In this document: in pieces, positions 86 through 43,111 of the stretch
Layout: each line of letters starts with the position of its first letter
Numbering within the stretch: position 1 is the stretch's first letter
DNA from: Tenacibaculum aquimarinum
GTDB lineage: Bacteria; Bacteroidota; Bacteroidia; Flavobacteriales; Flavobacteriaceae
Direction: 5' to 3'
DNA length: 64,000 nucleotides
Assembly: GCF_022478115.1 (NCBI RefSeq)
Contig: NZ_JAKGSC010000004.1
Location: 1-64,000, forward strand
Notes under the pieces: generated by a model
What the model saw: the letters and a program-made list of their open reading frames with translations, nothing else
Databases searched by the model: none
What the model was told of the DNA's origin: nothing
Made by a program: the position numbers and the translations under genes

Positions 86-1120
86 ATGAACGTTTGTTTT
101 TTAATGTATCCATGGGAAAGTATAAAAGCCCCAGAGAACGACACTTCTTTAACTCTCATTCACGAATGTGTAAAAAGAGGTCATGGTGTTGCAATTTGCT
201 CGCCATCTAATTTAACTATTAGAAATAGCGTTACTAGTGCTTTTTGTACAATTTTAAAGCGTGCAGAAAAAGTTCCTGCAAATTTAAAGACGTTTCATAA
301 AAAAACAGAACTTAGAGAGGAAATGCTGCCTTTAGCAGGTTTTGACATTATTTTTATGAGGGCAGAACCGCCTTTAGATCCAATAATGTTAAACTTTTTA
401 GACTCGGTAAAAGATGATGTTTTTATAATAAATTCCGTTCAAGGAATGCGTGTAGCAAACAATAAATTATATACAGCTGTTTTTGAAGATCCAAATAATG
501 AAATAATTCCTGTAACACACGTTTCAAAAAATAAAGATTATTTAGTTAAAATGATTGAAGAATCTAATTCAGATAAAATGATATTAAAACCCTTAAATGG
601 TTTTGGTGGTTCTGGAGTTATTTTAATAGAAAAATCTGCAATGGGAAACATTAATTCTCTTTTAGATTTTTATATAAATAAAGGTGATGGAAATTCCGAT
701 TATGTTATTCTTCAAGAATATATTGAAGGTGCAGATAAAGGAGATGTTAGAATTTTATTGTTAAATGGTTTGCCAATTGGAGCTATGAAACGTGTTCCTG
801 GAGATAAAGATCATCGATCTAATGTTTCTGCTGGAGGTACAATTGAAAAACATAAACTTACTGCACAAGAAAAACTATTGTGTAAAAAAATTGGACCCAA
901 ATTAGTGAAAGACGGATTGTATTTTGTTGGTATAGACGTAATTGGAGGTAAGCTTGTGGAGGTTAATGTAATGAGTCCAGGAGGAATTACTTACATGAAT
1001 AGAGTTTATAAAACCAAAGTTCAAGAAAAAGTAGTTGATTTTATGGAAAGTAAATACCTTGAAAGAAATGCTGCGTTTATTAGAAAATCGGATTTAAAAA
1101 GACAAGTAGACGAAGCATAA
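86..1120 (+). CDS. Glutathione synthetase-like ATP-grasp ligase (GshB family)
   Basis: This 344-residue cytosolic protein has the GshB layout: an N-terminal Rossmann-like part with FMRAEPP at 90-96, then an ATP-grasp domain. That domain has the glycine-rich loop KPLNGFGGSG at 168-177, QEYIEGADKGDVR at 210-222, and the metal/ATP site GIDVIG (282-287) and EVNVMSPGG (292-300). It is slightly longer than the roughly 316-residue E. coli enzyme. Family members join a carboxylate to an amine with ATP; GshB itself adds glycine to gamma-glutamylcysteine. The window encodes bacillithiol enzymes, and this gene heads a run with an amidohydrolase and a DUF1704 peptidase, so another peptide substrate is plausible (inference). 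The ATG directly follows the heptamer array. Confidence 0.85.
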   Translation: MNVCFLMYPWESIKAPENDTSLTLIHECVKRGHGVAICSPSNLTIRNSVTSAFCTILKRAEKVPANLKTFHKKTELREEMLPLAGFDIIFMRAEPPLDPIMLNFLDSVKDDVFIINSVQGMRVANNKLYTAVFEDPNNEIIPVTHVSKNKDYLVKMIEESNSDKMILKPLNGFGGSGVILIEKSAMGNINSLLDFYINKGDGNSDYVILQEYIEGADKGDVRILLLNGLPIGAMKRVPGDKDHRSNVSAGGTIEKHKLTAQEKLLCKKIGPKLVKDGLYFVGIDVIGGKLVEVNVMSPGGITYMNRVYKTKVQEKVVDFMESKYLERNAAFIRKSDLKRQVDEA

Positions 1121-1175
1121 AACAGTTGGCAGTTTTTAAGTTAGCAATAAAAAATAATATTTGTAAAAATAGAAG

Positions 1176-2015
1176 TTGATAAAAGTTGATAAACCTATAG
1201 TTTCAGTAGATTGGCTACATCAAAATATTGATGCAGAAAATCTTATTATTTTAGATGCTACAATTCCTAAAGTAGGAACTAAAAATGAAGTAAAAATCAA
1301 TAAAAAGGTTATTCCAAATACTCGTTTTTTTGATATAAAAAATACATTTTCTGATAAAGAATCGCAGTATCCAAATACTATTTTATCTGCTAAAAATTTT
1401 GAGGAAGAAGCACAAAACCTAGGAATTAACAAAAACACATGTATAGTTGCTTATGATGATTTAGGAGTGTACGCTTCGCCCAGAGCTTGGTGGATGTTTA
1501 AATTAATGGGTTTTGATAATATAGCGGTTTTAGATGGAGGTTTTCCTGCTTGGGAAAAAGCTAATTTCAATACAGAAAAACCAAAGAAAAACCAGTTTAC
1601 AAAAGGAAATTTTATAGCTGATTATCAATCAGAAAAAATAAAAGTAACTGAACAAGTTTTATCAGCAACCAAAAACAATACTATTTTAATTGCTGATGCT
1701 CGTTCTAAAGGAAGGTTTTATGGAACTGAACCAGAACCAAGAAAAGAAATTAGAGGAGGTCATATGCCAAATTCGGTTAGTTTACCTTATGGAGAAATAC
1801 TTTCTAACGGAAGGTTAAAATCAACAGAAGAATTAAAAAGAATTTTCGAAGAAATAAACCCAACAAGTAGCTCCTTAATTTTTTCTTGCGGAAGTGGAAT
1901 TACAGCTTGTGTTTTAGCTTTAGGAGCAGAAATTGCTAACATTAAAAATTACGCAGTATATGATGGTTCTTGGACAGAGTGGGGAAGTAGAACAGAATTA
2001 CCAATTATTAAATAA
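1176..2015 (+). CDS. Thiosulfate/3-mercaptopyruvate sulfurtransferase (two rhodanese domains)
   Basis: The 279-residue protein has two rhodanese domains. The N-terminal one is structural (roughly 8-130). The C-terminal one carries the catalytic loop CGSGITA with Cys238, the form typical of mercaptopyruvate sulfurtransferases, which move sulfane sulfur from 3-mercaptopyruvate to a thiol acceptor. An in-frame TAG at 1170-1172 and the lack of an upstream ATG leave TTG at 1176 as the best start. It lies in a 10-base tandem duplication (AAGTTGATAA twice), so the start region may have been rearranged. The gene is 55 bases after the ATP-grasp gene and 6 bases before the next, probably in one transcript. 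No export signal is seen. Confidence 0.9.
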   Translation: MIKVDKPIVSVDWLHQNIDAENLIILDATIPKVGTKNEVKINKKVIPNTRFFDIKNTFSDKESQYPNTILSAKNFEEEAQNLGINKNTCIVAYDDLGVYASPRAWWMFKLMGFDNIAVLDGGFPAWEKANFNTEKPKKNQFTKGNFIADYQSEKIKVTEQVLSATKNNTILIADARSKGRFYGTEPEPRKEIRGGHMPNSVSLPYGEILSNGRLKSTEELKRIFEEINPTSSSLIFSCGSGITACVLALGAEIANIKNYAVYDGSWTEWGSRTELPIIK

Positions 2016-2021
2016 TAAATT

Positions 2022-2348
2022 ATGACACAAAATTGGACAAAAGAAGAATTTACAGCATATGTTTTATTATATGTTGCACAAAGTAATTACATAGAGACGG
2101 AAGATGAAAGCAATTATATTTTATCTAAAGTAGATGAAAAATCGTTTAATGCAATTCATACAGAAATTGTACATGATAACGATTATCAAAGTATGGAAAA
2201 AATTAAGCAATATTTGTTAGATAATAAATATTCAGATGAAGATAAATCAAAGTTAATTAAAGAGATTAAAGAAGTCTGTTTTGCTGACGGTTCTGTAGAT
2301 ATTTTAGAAAAGAATGCATTTATGTTTTTAAAGAAAATATTAAAGTAA
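2022..2348 (+). CDS. TerB-like small protein
   Basis: This 108-residue, acidic, mostly helical protein has no signal peptide or membrane segment. Its C-terminal stretch CFADGSVDILEKNAFMFL (about 86-103) resembles the helix with acidic residues of TerB/DUF533-type folds, which bind metal in tellurite-resistance TerB. The match rests on pattern only, so TerB-like is tentative. Its TAA overlaps the ATG of the next gene (TAATG), which indicates translational coupling with the amidohydrolase-like protein. Confidence 0.7.
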   Translation: MTQNWTKEEFTAYVLLYVAQSNYIETEDESNYILSKVDEKSFNAIHTEIVHDNDYQSMEKIKQYLLDNKYSDEDKSKLIKEIKEVCFADGSVDILEKNAFMFLKKILK

Positions 2349-3178
2349 TGGAAAAGTTATCTGTTGAAGAAATTATTCATAAAATTAAAAATGAAGAAAT
2401 TTTTGAAGCCGTTTCATCAGATTATTCATTTACAATAAAGATTGAAGAATATGTTCCGTATGCTTGTGGAGCTGTACATGATGGAAATCAATTTAGAAAA
2501 GAATTGTGGGATAATTGTAAGCATACAGCGTATGAACGTTGGTTTGAAGAAGACCCGGAAACCAAAGAAATGGTTAAAACGCATCCAATAATTATAGCAG
2601 GTTTGGATTCTCGGTTTGAGTACGATTTAAATCGCCCACCAGAAACTGCAATTTACACAGATGCTTGGGGAAAACAATTATGGCATAAAGAATTACCGAA
2701 AAGTCAAAAAGAGAAAAGCTTAGTTAAGCATGCTAATTTTTATAAAGTAGTTAAAGCTTTAGTTGAGAAGTTAGAAGAAAAATTTGGAGTTTGTATTGTG
2801 TATGATATGCACAGTTATAACTGGAAACGTTGGGATAGAGAAGTGCCAACTTGGAATTTAGGAACCTCAAATATCGATAATAACCGTTTTGGTGAAGAAG
2901 TAGAATCTTGGCGTAAAGTTTTAGAAAAAATGCCATTACCAAACTTAATAAAATCAACTTCAAAAATTAATGATACATTTCAAGGAAATGGATATTTTTT
3001 AAAGTTTATCACTCAAAATTTTGACAATACTTTAGTCTTAGCAACAGAAATAGCAAAAGTGTATTGTGATGAGTTAACACAAACAATGTTTCCTGAAGTT
3101 GTGCAAGCCGTAGAAAAATATTTAAGAATTGAATTAAAAAAACACGCAGAAAACTTTTATAAAAAGCATAAAGCGTAA
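2348..3178 (+). CDS. N-formylglutamate amidohydrolase-like protein
   Basis: This 276-residue cytosolic protein resembles the N-formylglutamate amidohydrolase (HutG-type) superfamily. It has an early VPYACGAVHDG segment (36-46), LDSRFEYDLNR (about 87-97) and a central VYDMHSYN motif, where the Asp and His would bind zinc. Family members cleave amide bonds next to glutamate-like groups. No histidine-degradation genes are nearby, so a Hut role is not supported. Between a GshB-like ligase and a DUF1704 peptidase it more likely acts on a peptide or amino-acid amide (inference). It starts by overlapping the TerB-like gene and ends 29 bases before the peptidase gene. Confidence 0.82.
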   Translation: MEKLSVEEIIHKIKNEEIFEAVSSDYSFTIKIEEYVPYACGAVHDGNQFRKELWDNCKHTAYERWFEEDPETKEMVKTHPIIIAGLDSRFEYDLNRPPETAIYTDAWGKQLWHKELPKSQKEKSLVKHANFYKVVKALVEKLEEKFGVCIVYDMHSYNWKRWDREVPTWNLGTSNIDNNRFGEEVESWRKVLEKMPLPNLIKSTSKINDTFQGNGYFLKFITQNFDNTLVLATEIAKVYCDELTQTMFPEVVQAVEKYLRIELKKHAENFYKKHKA

Positions 3179-3207
3179 CTTTGTGCCGTAATTTTTGCAA
3201 TTGATTT

Positions 3208-4368
3208 ATGATGAATGACACTTCTTTAAAAACAGCATCACTTTTTAAAATAGATAATTATGTAGATAGTTTGGTTAAAAAAATTGAACTATTAAGCTAC
3301 GTAAATCCAACAAATATAGAAGAACAAAAGCAACTGTTTTTTGATTCAAATTACTTTACAGATCCTAATTTTGTATATCCTAAAAGAGATTTTGATAAGT
3401 TTAAATTACATAGAGAGTTTTTTACCCAACCGCTAGAAGAAATAGAAGACGAAAGATTACGTAATTTGTATGAAGAAATCATCTATTTTTATTCAGGTTT
3501 AATACAATGTATTGAAACTGTTGGAGAAGGTAAGAGGTTTTATTACAATAGTTTACATTCATTCGGAACGCCTACAGAACAAGATGTAGAAAACGCAAAA
3601 TTTATTCTTCATTTTAATGCTGAAGATGAAGAGTCAGAGATTTTTCAACCAAAATACTCACCAAAAGAAGCCGAAGATTTATTTAGAAATTACGCCAAAC
3701 AATACGATTTTACATTCGATATAAAATATTCTAAAACTATGGGAGCAATTGCTATGGTTTTAAATAATATTCAAACGTTAGTTTTAAATGAAAACCATAC
3801 GTTTTCAGAAAATGAAATGGGTATTTTAACAAATCATGAAATTGGCGTACACATGGTTACTACAATGAATGGTTTATTACATCCATTAAAAATATTTTCT
3901 CATGGATTTCCAGATAATGTAGAAACACAAGAAGGTTTAGCAGTTTTTAGTGAATATATGTCCGGAAACTTAACTGTTAGAAGGTTAAAAGAATTGGCTT
4001 ACAGAGTTTTAGCAGTAGATAGTTTAGCTAAAGGATATTCATTTTCTAAAACATTTAGATTACTACATAACACGTATGATTTAGAAAGAGAACAAGCTTT
4101 TTATATAACAACAAGAGCACATCGCGGAGGAGGTTTTACTAAAGATTACTTATACTTAACGGGTTTAAAAAAAGTATACGATTATTATAATGAAGGCAAA
4201 GATTTAAAATTACTATTAACAGGTAAAGTTTCTTTGGAGTTTGTAGATGATATTACTTATTTACTTGAAAATAAATATGCAACGCCAATAAAGCATTATA
4301 CTGATGCTTATTTAAAAAATAATAACAAAAATAAAACAATAGACTTTATTTTAAACTCTTTAAAATAA
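3208..4368 (+). CDS. DUF1704 / QEGLA-motif zinc metallopeptidase-like protein
   Basis: The 386-residue protein matches the DUF1704 family (flavohemoglobin expression-modulating QEGLA motif proteins). The zincin-like motif HEIGVH is at 210-215 and the family motif QEGLA at 241-245, followed by a conserved arginine-rich helix. Eukaryotic relatives (MATCAP/KIAA0895-type) are tubulin tyrosine carboxypeptidases using the same HExxxH signature, so a carboxypeptidase activity is reasonable. No signal peptide is present, so the substrate should be cytosolic. It is the last gene of the plus-strand run and converges on the DCC gene with only 2 bases between stops. Two adjacent ATGs occur at the start (3208 and 3211). 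Confidence 0.88.
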   Translation: MMNDTSLKTASLFKIDNYVDSLVKKIELLSYVNPTNIEEQKQLFFDSNYFTDPNFVYPKRDFDKFKLHREFFTQPLEEIEDERLRNLYEEIIYFYSGLIQCIETVGEGKRFYYNSLHSFGTPTEQDVENAKFILHFNAEDEESEIFQPKYSPKEAEDLFRNYAKQYDFTFDIKYSKTMGAIAMVLNNIQTLVLNENHTFSENEMGILTNHEIGVHMVTTMNGLLHPLKIFSHGFPDNVETQEGLAVFSEYMSGNLTVRRLKELAYRVLAVDSLAKGYSFSKTFRLLHNTYDLEREQAFYITTRAHRGGGFTKDYLYLTGLKKVYDYYNEGKDLKLLLTGKVSLEFVDDITYLLENKYATPIKHYTDAYLKNNNKNKTIDFILNSLK

Positions 4369-4370
4369 AC

Positions 4371-4787
4371 TTATTCAATAAATTTAGATTTTAATTCTTT
4401 AGTAGGAATCATACAGCTTTCTTTTTTACCGAACCATTTATAACGGTTTTTAGCAATAAAATCATACACAAGATTTCTAATTACTGAAGGAAATACCCAA
4501 AATAGTTGTGTCATTTTCCAAAAACCACCAAAATTAGCAGCTATTTTTAAAGCAGCAGAAGATTTAATGGTGTAGGAATAGTTTTCTTCAACCAAGATAA
4601 TAGAATCAATTTTAGTTACATCAATCTTTAAATGGTTGGTAATTTCTTGTCCAATGTTAGATTGTAATGAAGCAAAAACAAAAATATGATGCTTGTCAAA
4701 CTTAATTATTTTTAACACTGCGTTATTACACAAGTTGCAAACACCGTCAAATAAAATTAACTTTTTTCCTTTTGGAATATTCATCAT
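4371..4787 (-). CDS. DCC-family thiol-disulfide oxidoreductase (DUF393)
   Basis: The 138-residue protein starts with the DCC signature LFDGVCNLCN, giving a CxxC pair at Cys17 and Cys20 in a thioredoxin-like setting; the family (YuxK-like, DUF393) is named for a conserved Asp-x-x-Cys-x-x-Cys. The substrate is unknown and the family is only generally assigned to thiol redox. It has no signal peptide. A second methionine follows the first, so the exact start is uncertain by one codon. It runs convergently with the ligase/peptidase block and has its own -7 box at 4812-4819. Confidence 0.85.
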   Translation of the reverse strand: MMNIPKGKKLILFDGVCNLCNNAVLKIIKFDKHHIFVFASLQSNIGQEITNHLKIDVTKIDSIILVEENYSYTIKSSAALKIAANFGGFWKMTQLFWVFPSVIRNLVYDFIAKNRYKWFGKKESCMIPTKELKSKFIE

Positions 4788-15975: not shown

Positions 15976-16692
15976 ATGAAATTAGACATATTAGCTTTTG
16001 GTGCACATCCAGACGATGTAGAATTAGGAGCAGGAGCAACCATAGCAAAAGAAATTTCTTTAGGAAAAAAAGTAGGAATAGTAGATTTAACACGCGGAGA
16101 ACTTGGTACAAGAGGTTCAGCAGAAATACGTGATGTAGAAGCTACAAATGCTGCTAAAATTCTTGGAGTTTCCGTAAGAGAAAATGTAGGTTTTGCTGAT
16201 GGTTTTTTTACAAATGATAAAGAGCATCAGTTAGAAATTATAAAAATGATTCGTAAATATAAGCCAGAAATTGTGTTGTGTAACGCAATTGATGACCGAC
16301 ATATAGATCATGGAAAAGGAAGTAAATTAGTTTCTGATGCTTGTTTTTTAAGCGGATTGTTAAAAATTGAAACTGAAGTAGCGGGTAAGCAACAAGAAAA
16401 ATGGCGACCAAAGAAAGTGTATCATTATATACAATGGAAAAACATTGAACCTCAGTTTGTAGTTGATGTAACTGGTTTTATGGAAACTAAAATAGATGCT
16501 GTAATGGCTTATTCTTCACAATTTTATGATCCTAAAAGTACAGAACCTCAAACACCAATTACAAGCAAAAACTTTACAGAAAGTATAGATTATAGAGCAA
16601 GAGACTTAGGACGTTTAATAGGAGTAGAGCACGCAGAAGGTTTTACAACAGAGCGTTACGTTGCTGTAGAAAATTTAGATAAATTAATTTAA
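15976..16692 (+). CDS. bshB1: Bacillithiol biosynthesis deacetylase BshB1
   Basis: The 238-residue protein is a LmbE/PIG-L zinc deacetylase with the motif GAHPDDVELGAGATI at 8-22 (His and Asp residues bind zinc), RGELGTRGS at 40-48, and the second metal motif DRHIDHGKGSKLV. These residues match the BshB1 group, which removes the acetyl group from GlcNAc-malate to give GlcN-malate. BshC, which adds cysteine in the last step, is encoded at 41507-43111; bshA is outside the window. The gene follows the transsulfuration enzyme by 33 bases. Confidence 0.93.
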   Translation: MKLDILAFGAHPDDVELGAGATIAKEISLGKKVGIVDLTRGELGTRGSAEIRDVEATNAAKILGVSVRENVGFADGFFTNDKEHQLEIIKMIRKYKPEIVLCNAIDDRHIDHGKGSKLVSDACFLSGLLKIETEVAGKQQEKWRPKKVYHYIQWKNIEPQFVVDVTGFMETKIDAVMAYSSQFYDPKSTEPQTPITSKNFTESIDYRARDLGRLIGVEHAEGFTTERYVAVENLDKLI

Positions 16693-41506: not shown

Positions 41507-43111
41507 ATGACAGAAACAGATTGTATAGAACATATTCCGTTTAAAAACACTGGGTATTTCACAAAAACTATGTTAGATTATTTAGCTAAAGATGCTAAGA
41601 TTCTCCCTTTTTACAATAATTTTCCAAACTTAGAAGGTTTTAAATCACAAATTGAGGAGAAAAAGTTGTCAGTTCTATCGCAGTCGAGAGCTATTCTAGT
41701 TGAATCTCTTAAAAAACAATATAAGAATAGTGCTATTTCTGATTTAACTCAAAGAAATATAGAGTTATTAGCACTTAATAATACTTTTACTGTAACAACA
41801 GGCCATCAATTAAATCTATTTACTGGTCCTTTATATTTTTTATATAAAATACTGTCTGTCATTAATTTATGCGAAGAATTGTCCGTGAAATTTCCGAAAG
41901 AAAATTTTGTTCCAATTTATTGGATGGCAACAGAAGATCATGATTTTGAAGAAATTAATTTTTTCAATTTTAAAGATGTTAAATTTAGGTGGAATACTAA
42001 TCAGAATGGTGCTGTTGGTCGTTTTTCTACTGAAGGATTAGAAGAAGTATTGGCTGTTTTCTCAGCAAAATTAGGAGATTCTAAAAGAGCCAATGAATTA
42101 AAGGAGTTATTTTCTCAAGGTTATACCAAACACAATAATTTAGCAGAAGCAACACAATATATTGCAAACGAATTATTTGGAAAATATGGAATTGTAATTA
42201 TTGATGCTGATACTGCGGATTTAAAACGTCCTTTTCTTCCGTTTGTAAAAGATGAATTATTGAATCAAACTTCTTATAATGAGGTTTCTAAAACGAATTT
42301 AGAGTTTGAAAAAAATTATAAAATTCAAGTTAATCCTCGAGAAATAAATTTGTTTTATTTAACTGACAATCAGCGAGAAAGAATTGTTTTTGAAGAGGGT
42401 GTTTATCAAATTAATAATACAGAAATCACTTTTTCTGAAGCTGAAATTTTAGAGGAATTAGAAAATTATCCCGAACGTTTTTCTCCAAACGTATTAATGC
42501 GTCCGTTATACCAAGAAGTAATTTTACCAAATTTAAGTTATGTTGGTGGAGGAGGAGAAATAGCATATTGGTTGCAGTTGAAAAGCTATTTTGAAAAAGT
42601 TAAAGTTCCTTTCCCAATTTTATTATTGCGTAATTCTGTACAAGTAATTTCAGAAAAACAATCTAAAAAACTTGAAAAATTAGATATTTCTTTAGAGGAA
42701 ATATTTTTAAAGCAAAACGATTTACTAACAAAAAAAGTGAATGAAAATTCTGAGGTTTCAGTAGATTTTGGACAACAGAAAGAATTTTTAAAGCAACAGT
42801 TTTCTGATTTAAAAGTTATTGCTAAAAAAACTGATGTTTCTTTTGTAGGCGCTGTAAACGCTCAAGAGAAAAAGCAAATAAAAGGTTTAGAAAACCTTGA
42901 GAAGCGTCTTTTAAGAGCAGAAAAACGTAAGCAAAATGATTTAGTGCAAAGAATTACGGATTTACAAAATCAGCTTTTTCCAAACCAGAGTTTAGAAGAG
43001 CGTCAACGTAATTTTTCTGAATATTATTTAGAATACGGAAACGATTTTGTTCAGCAATTAAAAGATAACTTAAAACCATTGCAATTAGAGTTTATGGTTC
43101 TAAAAATGTAG
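41507..43111 (+). CDS. bshC: Bacillithiol biosynthesis cysteine-adding enzyme BshC
   Basis: The 534-residue protein matches BshC (COG4365) in length and motifs: TTGHQLNLFTGPLYFLYKI (about 97-115), WMATEDHDFEEINFF (about 144-158), VLMRPLYQEVILPNLSYVGG (about 330-349) and a C-terminal coiled coil. BshC joins cysteine to GlcN-malate to finish bacillithiol. With BshB1 at 15976 this shows that the strain makes bacillithiol. The gene stands alone with a -7 box right at its ATG. Confidence 0.95.
   Translation: MTETDCIEHIPFKNTGYFTKTMLDYLAKDAKILPFYNNFPNLEGFKSQIEEKKLSVLSQSRAILVESLKKQYKNSAISDLTQRNIELLALNNTFTVTTGHQLNLFTGPLYFLYKILSVINLCEELSVKFPKENFVPIYWMATEDHDFEEINFFNFKDVKFRWNTNQNGAVGRFSTEGLEEVLAVFSAKLGDSKRANELKELFSQGYTKHNNLAEATQYIANELFGKYGIVIIDADTADLKRPFLPFVKDELLNQTSYNEVSKTNLEFEKNYKIQVNPREINLFYLTDNQRERIVFEEGVYQINNTEITFSEAEILEELENYPERFSPNVLMRPLYQEVILPNLSYVGGGGEIAYWLQLKSYFEKVKVPFPILLLRNSVQVISEKQSKKLEKLDISLEEIFLKQNDLLTKKVNENSEVSVDFGQQKEFLKQQFSDLKVIAKKTDVSFVGAVNAQEKKQIKGLENLEKRLLRAEKRKQNDLVQRITDLQNQLFPNQSLEERQRNFSEYYLEYGNDFVQQLKDNLKPLQLEFMVLKM

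Follow-up and report, generated by a model that had tools for sequence, protein, structure and literature searches.

The first 64,000 nucleotides of contig NZ_JAKGSC010000004.1 from Tenacibaculum aquimarinum (GCF_022478115.1), hereafter the window, begin with a run of five open reading frames (ORFs) on the same strand; intervals of 55, 6 and 29 bases separate them, except at position 2348, where two ORFs share one base in a TAATG overlap. A preliminary description, made from the sequence of the window, had recorded this arrangement accurately and had treated the five genes as one sulfur-linked system in a bacillithiol-making organism; the genes for BshB1 (15976-16689) and BshC (41525-42634) are indeed encoded in the window, as it stated. 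The conserved unit is, however, three genes rather than five: ORF 1 (86..1120, + strand), which encodes a GshB-like ATP-grasp ligase; ORF 4 (2348..3178, +), which encodes an amidohydrolase of the N-formylglutamate amidohydrolase family (hereafter FGase), a predicted zinc enzyme; and ORF 5 (3208..4368, +), which encodes a MATCAP/DUF1704 (QEGLA) protein, a predicted zinc carboxypeptidase.

MATCAP loci were drawn from three sets, comprising 59 relatives (13 with MATCAP), 395 sampled Bacteroidota (19 with MATCAP) and 25 loci from named genomes. Because the home genome belongs to both of the first two sets and the named set overlaps with them, the counts that follow use the 31 distinct MATCAP-bearing genomes of the first two sets. 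In 30 of the 31, a ligase gene accompanies MATCAP at its locus and on its strand (three genomes have two ligase genes there), and FGase lies at the locus in 27, as a separate gene in 23 and fused to MATCAP in four, and is absent from it in four. One of the named loci (L036) is cut short upstream; the other 24 all contain FGase, and 23 contain the ligase. Strong matches to the GshB domain PF02955 (E < 1e-40; the next match in the same 395 genomes was at 2.6e-27) were found in 20 of the 395 Bacteroidota, corresponding to 18 of the 19 genomes with MATCAP versus two of the 376 others, a co-occurrence far beyond chance (Fisher p 6e-28, uncorrected for shared ancestry). All 18 of these ligases stand at the MATCAP locus, and the proteins from the two genomes that lack MATCAP (G249 and G132) group with E. 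coli GshB.

Outside Bacteroidota, our loci come from plasmid records only (127 with a MATCAP match and 172 with a GshB match), eight of which were opened for the module (L039-L042 and L127-L130). In Aminobacter, Sinorhizobium, Pararhizobium and Shinella the gene order is FGase, MATCAP, ligase, and the flanking genes are unrelated; in Sinorhizobium meliloti the three genes form one operon on pSymB, with the ligase and FGase being the only members of the trio located in the record of strain 1021 (L127). Photobacterium sp. DA100 (L040) has a ligase gene and an FGase-MATCAP fusion. Linkage of the ligase, DUF1704 and amidohydrolase genes, for which the preliminary description had proposed a survey of flavobacterial genomes, thus extends over both Bacteroidota and Pseudomonadota. 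We considered a general-stress promoter 5' of the rhizobial operon and rejected it, as a motif match was found 333 bases upstream in S. meliloti and none in Aminobacter, Pararhizobium or Shinella. Rhizobia and Photobacterium make glutathione and, because they also carry the trio, we regard bacillithiol as background only; bshC is present in all 31 MATCAP genomes.

The window ligase contains both GshB domains (GSH-S_N, PF02951, 81 bits; GSH-S_ATP, PF02955, 182 bits) and is of the PRK12458 type (NF009110, 445 bits, cut-off 408). It scores below the TIGR01380 cut-off (231.8 versus 299.05), and its nearest named relative is from Tenacibaculum todarodis (98%). In a tree of 50 rows, the deep branches of which are weak, the window protein falls in a clade that we call ligA (support 97/89, 21 rows); a second clade, ligB, has 14 rows (95/99), seven GshB rows and one Desulfocapsa row form a separate group (81/78), and rows labelled RimK-like split over two long branches. 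The phylogeny called for in the preliminary description therefore places the ligase outside the true-GshB group. On a Desulfocapsa plasmid (L126, 4297-10559), an annotated gshB is found amid oxidoreductase, hypothetical, C45 family peptidase and radical SAM genes, possibly another GshB-like peptide pathway.

Residues K125, K160, R210, R225, D273, E281 and N283 of E. coli GshB (1gsa), which we take to be the columns of the ATP-grasp site, are conserved in 19 of 19 ligA and 13 of 13 ligB rows. The module ligases differ from GshB, by contrast, at three positions that probably touch substrate: Thr288 is replaced by Gly in every one of the same ligA and ligB rows, the counterpart of Asp9 is Tyr in ligA rows and Asn in ligB rows, and Thr99 falls in a gap of ligA. 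They differ also in genomic context, being linked to two hydrolases and lacking a PF04262 partner. The preliminary description had urged a check for gshA or gshF: a profile search found PF04262 (gshA) in none of the 31 genomes, and PF04107 is absent from the home genome, although it is present in two of the 13 MATCAP-bearing relatives. Neither the presence of such a gene nor missing linkage, the two genomic observations that the preliminary description had held would speak against its proposal, emerged to overturn it. The ligase is likely mislabelled as a glutathione synthase. In genome G001, a match to GCS2 (PF04107) and a further FGase match are only some 400 bases apart (contig C1, 3227061-3228769), perhaps representing a different ligase-FGase pairing.

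The window FGase matches PF05013 with 46 bits (cut-off 28.9), and its predicted fold and conserved His/Glu columns are those of the N-formylglutamate amidohydrolase family (2q7s). Against the HutG model (TIGR02017, N-formylglutamate deformylase), it scores only 15.8 bits, with a cut-off of 278.75, and FGases of the module differ from that family also in being fused or coupled to MATCAP. The window MATCAP matches PF08014 with 310 bits (cut-off 27), and its HEIGVH and TQEGLA motifs correspond in an alignment to HEIGTH and TEEGLA in human KIAA0895L (7z5g), a MATCAP/TMCP tubulin carboxypeptidase. HExxxH is present in 54 of 54 distinct rows, and [QEG]EG[LT]A, the EG motif that holds the third metal ligand, in 47 of 54. 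The protein falls below the QEGLA equivalog TIGR02421 (287.4 bits, cut-off 338.65), and QEGLA is a name and not a tested function. The bacterial genes differ from the human ones by the adjoining ligase gene, and many bacterial MATCAPs differ further by having a live or degenerate N-terminal FGase domain; the degenerate, FGase-like form, a feature of long MATCAPs, occurs in 11 of the 31 genomes. At the loci with two ligases (L067, L068 and L081), an FGase close to that of the window (80% in G013) is paired with a MATCAP of a long type (30% to the window MATCAP in G013), and the parts of the module therefore look interchangeable.

Three of the 31 genomes (G109, G328 and G422) have no PF05013 match anywhere in the genome, and in exactly these three a protein of 304-309 residues with an AstE/aspartoacylase catalytic domain (PF24827, 68-73 bits) has its gene next to that of the ligase, co-directional in two genomes and convergent in one. 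PF24827 matches are present in 28 of the 31 genomes but adjoin the module ligase only in these three. The occurrence of an AstE-family gene beside the ligase exactly where FGase is missing suggests that the module needs a hydrolase of the N-acyl-Glu/Asp type. Deacylation of glutamate or aspartate is common to the known AstE, aspartoacylase and N-formylglutamate amidohydrolase enzymes, and this shared activity is the strongest hint to the chemistry that the module may carry out.

Together, the linked and co-occurring genes, the fusions of FGase with MATCAP, the degenerate domain, the AstE swap, the retained active-site residues and the position of the ligase outside GshB point most probably to an ATP-dependent module that would build and trim a peptide or tag of glutamate type. 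The specific form that we favour, and hold tentatively, is that the ligase joins an amino acid to an acidic small peptide, likely an N-acyl- or gamma-glutamyl peptide, and that the two hydrolases dismantle such bonds. The ligase would spend ATP to form an amide bond on the acidic peptide; FGase and MATCAP would trim the ligase product as a common substrate, possibly within a complex; and the product would be a small peptide other than glutathione, made and recycled in the cytoplasm. Animal relatives of MATCAP cleave C-terminal Tyr and Glu and shorten poly-glutamate chains (PMC10499314), activities that fit a glutamate theme and are no proof of it.

Several observations weigh against this proposal. 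A divergent MATCAP in G241 (L061) stands without a ligase or an FGase at its side, the ligase is missing within 6 kb in Tenacibaculum sp. M341 (L031), and Vibrio HDW18 has an FGase-MATCAP fusion with no ligase in the 15 kb seen; because of these three cases, MATCAP may act without the ligase. The window ligase narrowly passes the NCBI glutathione synthase equivalog PRK05246 (277.4 bits, cut-off 272). Because the HutG model is so far from being matched, N-formylglutamate itself is unlikely to be the FGase substrate. Decay of the FGase-like domain is uneven, the first histidine being retained in seven of 24 rows, and in 37 of the 64 rows in an alignment of rhizobial type; and in a Foldseek search with a model relating to this domain, neither human MATCAP nor N-formylglutamate amidohydrolase was among the best 50 matches, of which the only one at E < 0.001 was an M32 carboxypeptidase. 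The ligases of the three AstE genomes occupy basal or near-basal positions in the ligB clade and two are sisters, so the swap may represent only one or two events. A symporter gene (PF00375), considered as a part of the module and as a clue to glutamate, was rejected: it stands close to the ligase in 37 of the 59 loci on which neighbours were counted (ORFs of at least 60 residues; some loci share a genome), but it is present in 51 of the 59 relatives although only 13 of the 59 have MATCAP, and in all 36 genomes of the same genus with or without MATCAP; in the home genome it is on another contig (C1). The divergent MATCAP of G241 has 424 residues and the top PF08014 score among the sampled genomes.

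Alternatively, the ligase could add one or more amino acids, probably glutamate, to protein tails or side chains, and MATCAP could erase them. In the same way, RimK modifies ribosomal protein S6, and in animals tubulin ligases and MATCAP write and erase modifications on tubulin. The ligase retains, however, the N-terminal GshB domain PF02951, an architecture for small substrates; the substrates of known FGase and AstE enzymes are small N-acyl amino acids; and no module-specific target candidate was found among the neighbouring ORFs of at least 60 residues. We consider protein tagging possible but less likely. Less probable still is a wider version of the small-peptide proposal, in which the trio would be a second "glutathione-like" pathway in both bacillithiol and glutathione makers, with one or two GshB-like ligases building an acidic peptide that MATCAP and FGase edit, and in which the bacterial pairing of ligase and MATCAP would be the stock from which the eukaryotic tubulin-tail carboxypeptidase arose.

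A salvage or detoxification role, in which scavenged acyl-peptides would yield amino acids through the hydrolases while the ligase would cap or conjugate an intermediate, has in its favour that two of the three core enzymes are hydrolases. In a Photobacterium damselae RNA-seq study, low salinity induced the genes designated GshB (locus tag RS17020) and QEGLA (RS17025) by 38.4- and 27.5-fold, respectively, and the induced GshB is discussed as glutathione synthetase (PMC10308900). Judged from the locus tag and from the Photobacterium sp. DA100 locus, this "GshB" is presumably a ligA protein, and the induction may point to a role of the module in a change of solute use. Salvage needs no ligase, yet a ligase accompanies nearly every MATCAP, and the one transporter frequently encoded in the vicinity shows no specificity for the module. 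We consider this explanation quite improbable.

The two ORFs that separate the ligase from FGase bear on the sulfur-linked pathway of the preliminary description, in which a sulfurtransferase would feed synthesis of a thiol peptide. ORF 2 (1176..2015, +, TTG start) encodes a mercaptopyruvate-sulfurtransferase-like rhodanese with PF00581 over two stretches (PRK11493, 222.7 bits, below the equivalog cut-off of 250), and ORF 3 (2022..2348, +) encodes a small protein of 108 residues that had been called TerB-like. The TerB-like label of ORF 3 is weak, as a Pfam scan of the window protein gave no match at E 0.01, and among four homologues one reaches PF05099 (E 0.0027, 18.4 bits) without attaining its cut-off of 24.4. 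The sulfurtransferase is encoded at the locus in 13 of the 31 genomes and the TerB-like protein in 10; the inspected loci of rhizobia and Vibrionaceae (a profile search for L039-L042, gene tables for L128-L130) yielded neither. Sulfur supply is accordingly not a core function, and we take both genes, optional neighbours outside the core, to be local additions in this lineage. In genome G003 (L084), the sulfurtransferase apparently consists of two separate ORFs, whereas the ligase, FGase and MATCAP are one ORF each. The 13 loci with a sulfurtransferase and the universal presence of bshC fit a thiol pathway, but absence of the gene from the other 18 loci and its apparent division in G003 make this explanation very doubtful. 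The least probable of all is that the ligase is an ordinary glutathione synthase beside unrelated peptidases, for although its database names (glutathione synthase or synthetase), the passed PRK05246 cut-off and the conserved ATP-grasp residues agree with that view, the scarcity of partner genes for glutathione synthesis, the substitutions at Thr288 and Asp9, the separate clades and the strict linkage to two hydrolases speak against it.

The start of the window is the end of the contig, so the ligase promoter region and anything 5' of base 1 are not visible; bases 1-85, directly 5' of the ligase start codon, contain a tandem 7-base repeat (CTAACAA). At the other end of the run, a gene for a DCC1-like thiol-disulfide oxidoreductase (4371-4787, - strand) converges with MATCAP, and homologues of it lie no more than about 7 kb from MATCAP in 27 of the 59 loci, all 27 from Bacteroidota. 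We rejected an anti-phage defence system, as none of the five window proteins matched a PADLOC model family at E 0.01.

The home genome contains two more overlapping pairs of ATP-grasp and metallohydrolase genes, one of RimK and AstE_AspA_cat (L131, 3592-5438) and one of RimK and Zn_protease PF05618 (L132, 3699-5011), on contigs C5 and C7. They share the same build-and-trim logic, with a ligase gene overlapping a metallohydrolase gene, but they use another ligase subfamily and other hydrolases, and no MATCAP was seen there. The pairing thus appears to be of a recurring kind, of which the trio is a variant. AstE matches also lie beside RimK-like matches in other genomes (for example G144, G189 and G266), and genes for a Pycsar-effector-type protein (PycTM, PF18967) and an adenosine-deaminase-like protein (L132, 1987-3458) adjoin the RimK/Zn_protease pair. 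Earlier work, perhaps that of Iyer et al. in 2009, reportedly predicted operons joining ATP-grasp ligases with DUF1704 and N-formylglutamate amidohydrolase-like peptidases, and the basic linkage of the trio may already have been predicted there. Among open-licence papers we found neither the trio linkage, which is no proof that it is unpublished, nor the degenerate FGase domain or the AstE swap. New here are the degenerate FGase-like domain on MATCAP and the replacement of FGase by an AstE-family protein.

If our proposal of a build-and-trim module is correct, annotations of the ligase as glutathione synthase are misleading, including that in the published P. damselae transcriptome (PMC10308900), and a metabolite or tag outside the known ones would be made in many Bacteroidota, rhizobia and some Vibrionaceae. 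The three-gene operon on S. meliloti pSymB makes the question directly testable, and bacterial MATCAPs make a carboxypeptidase family known to act on tubulin accessible to genetics.

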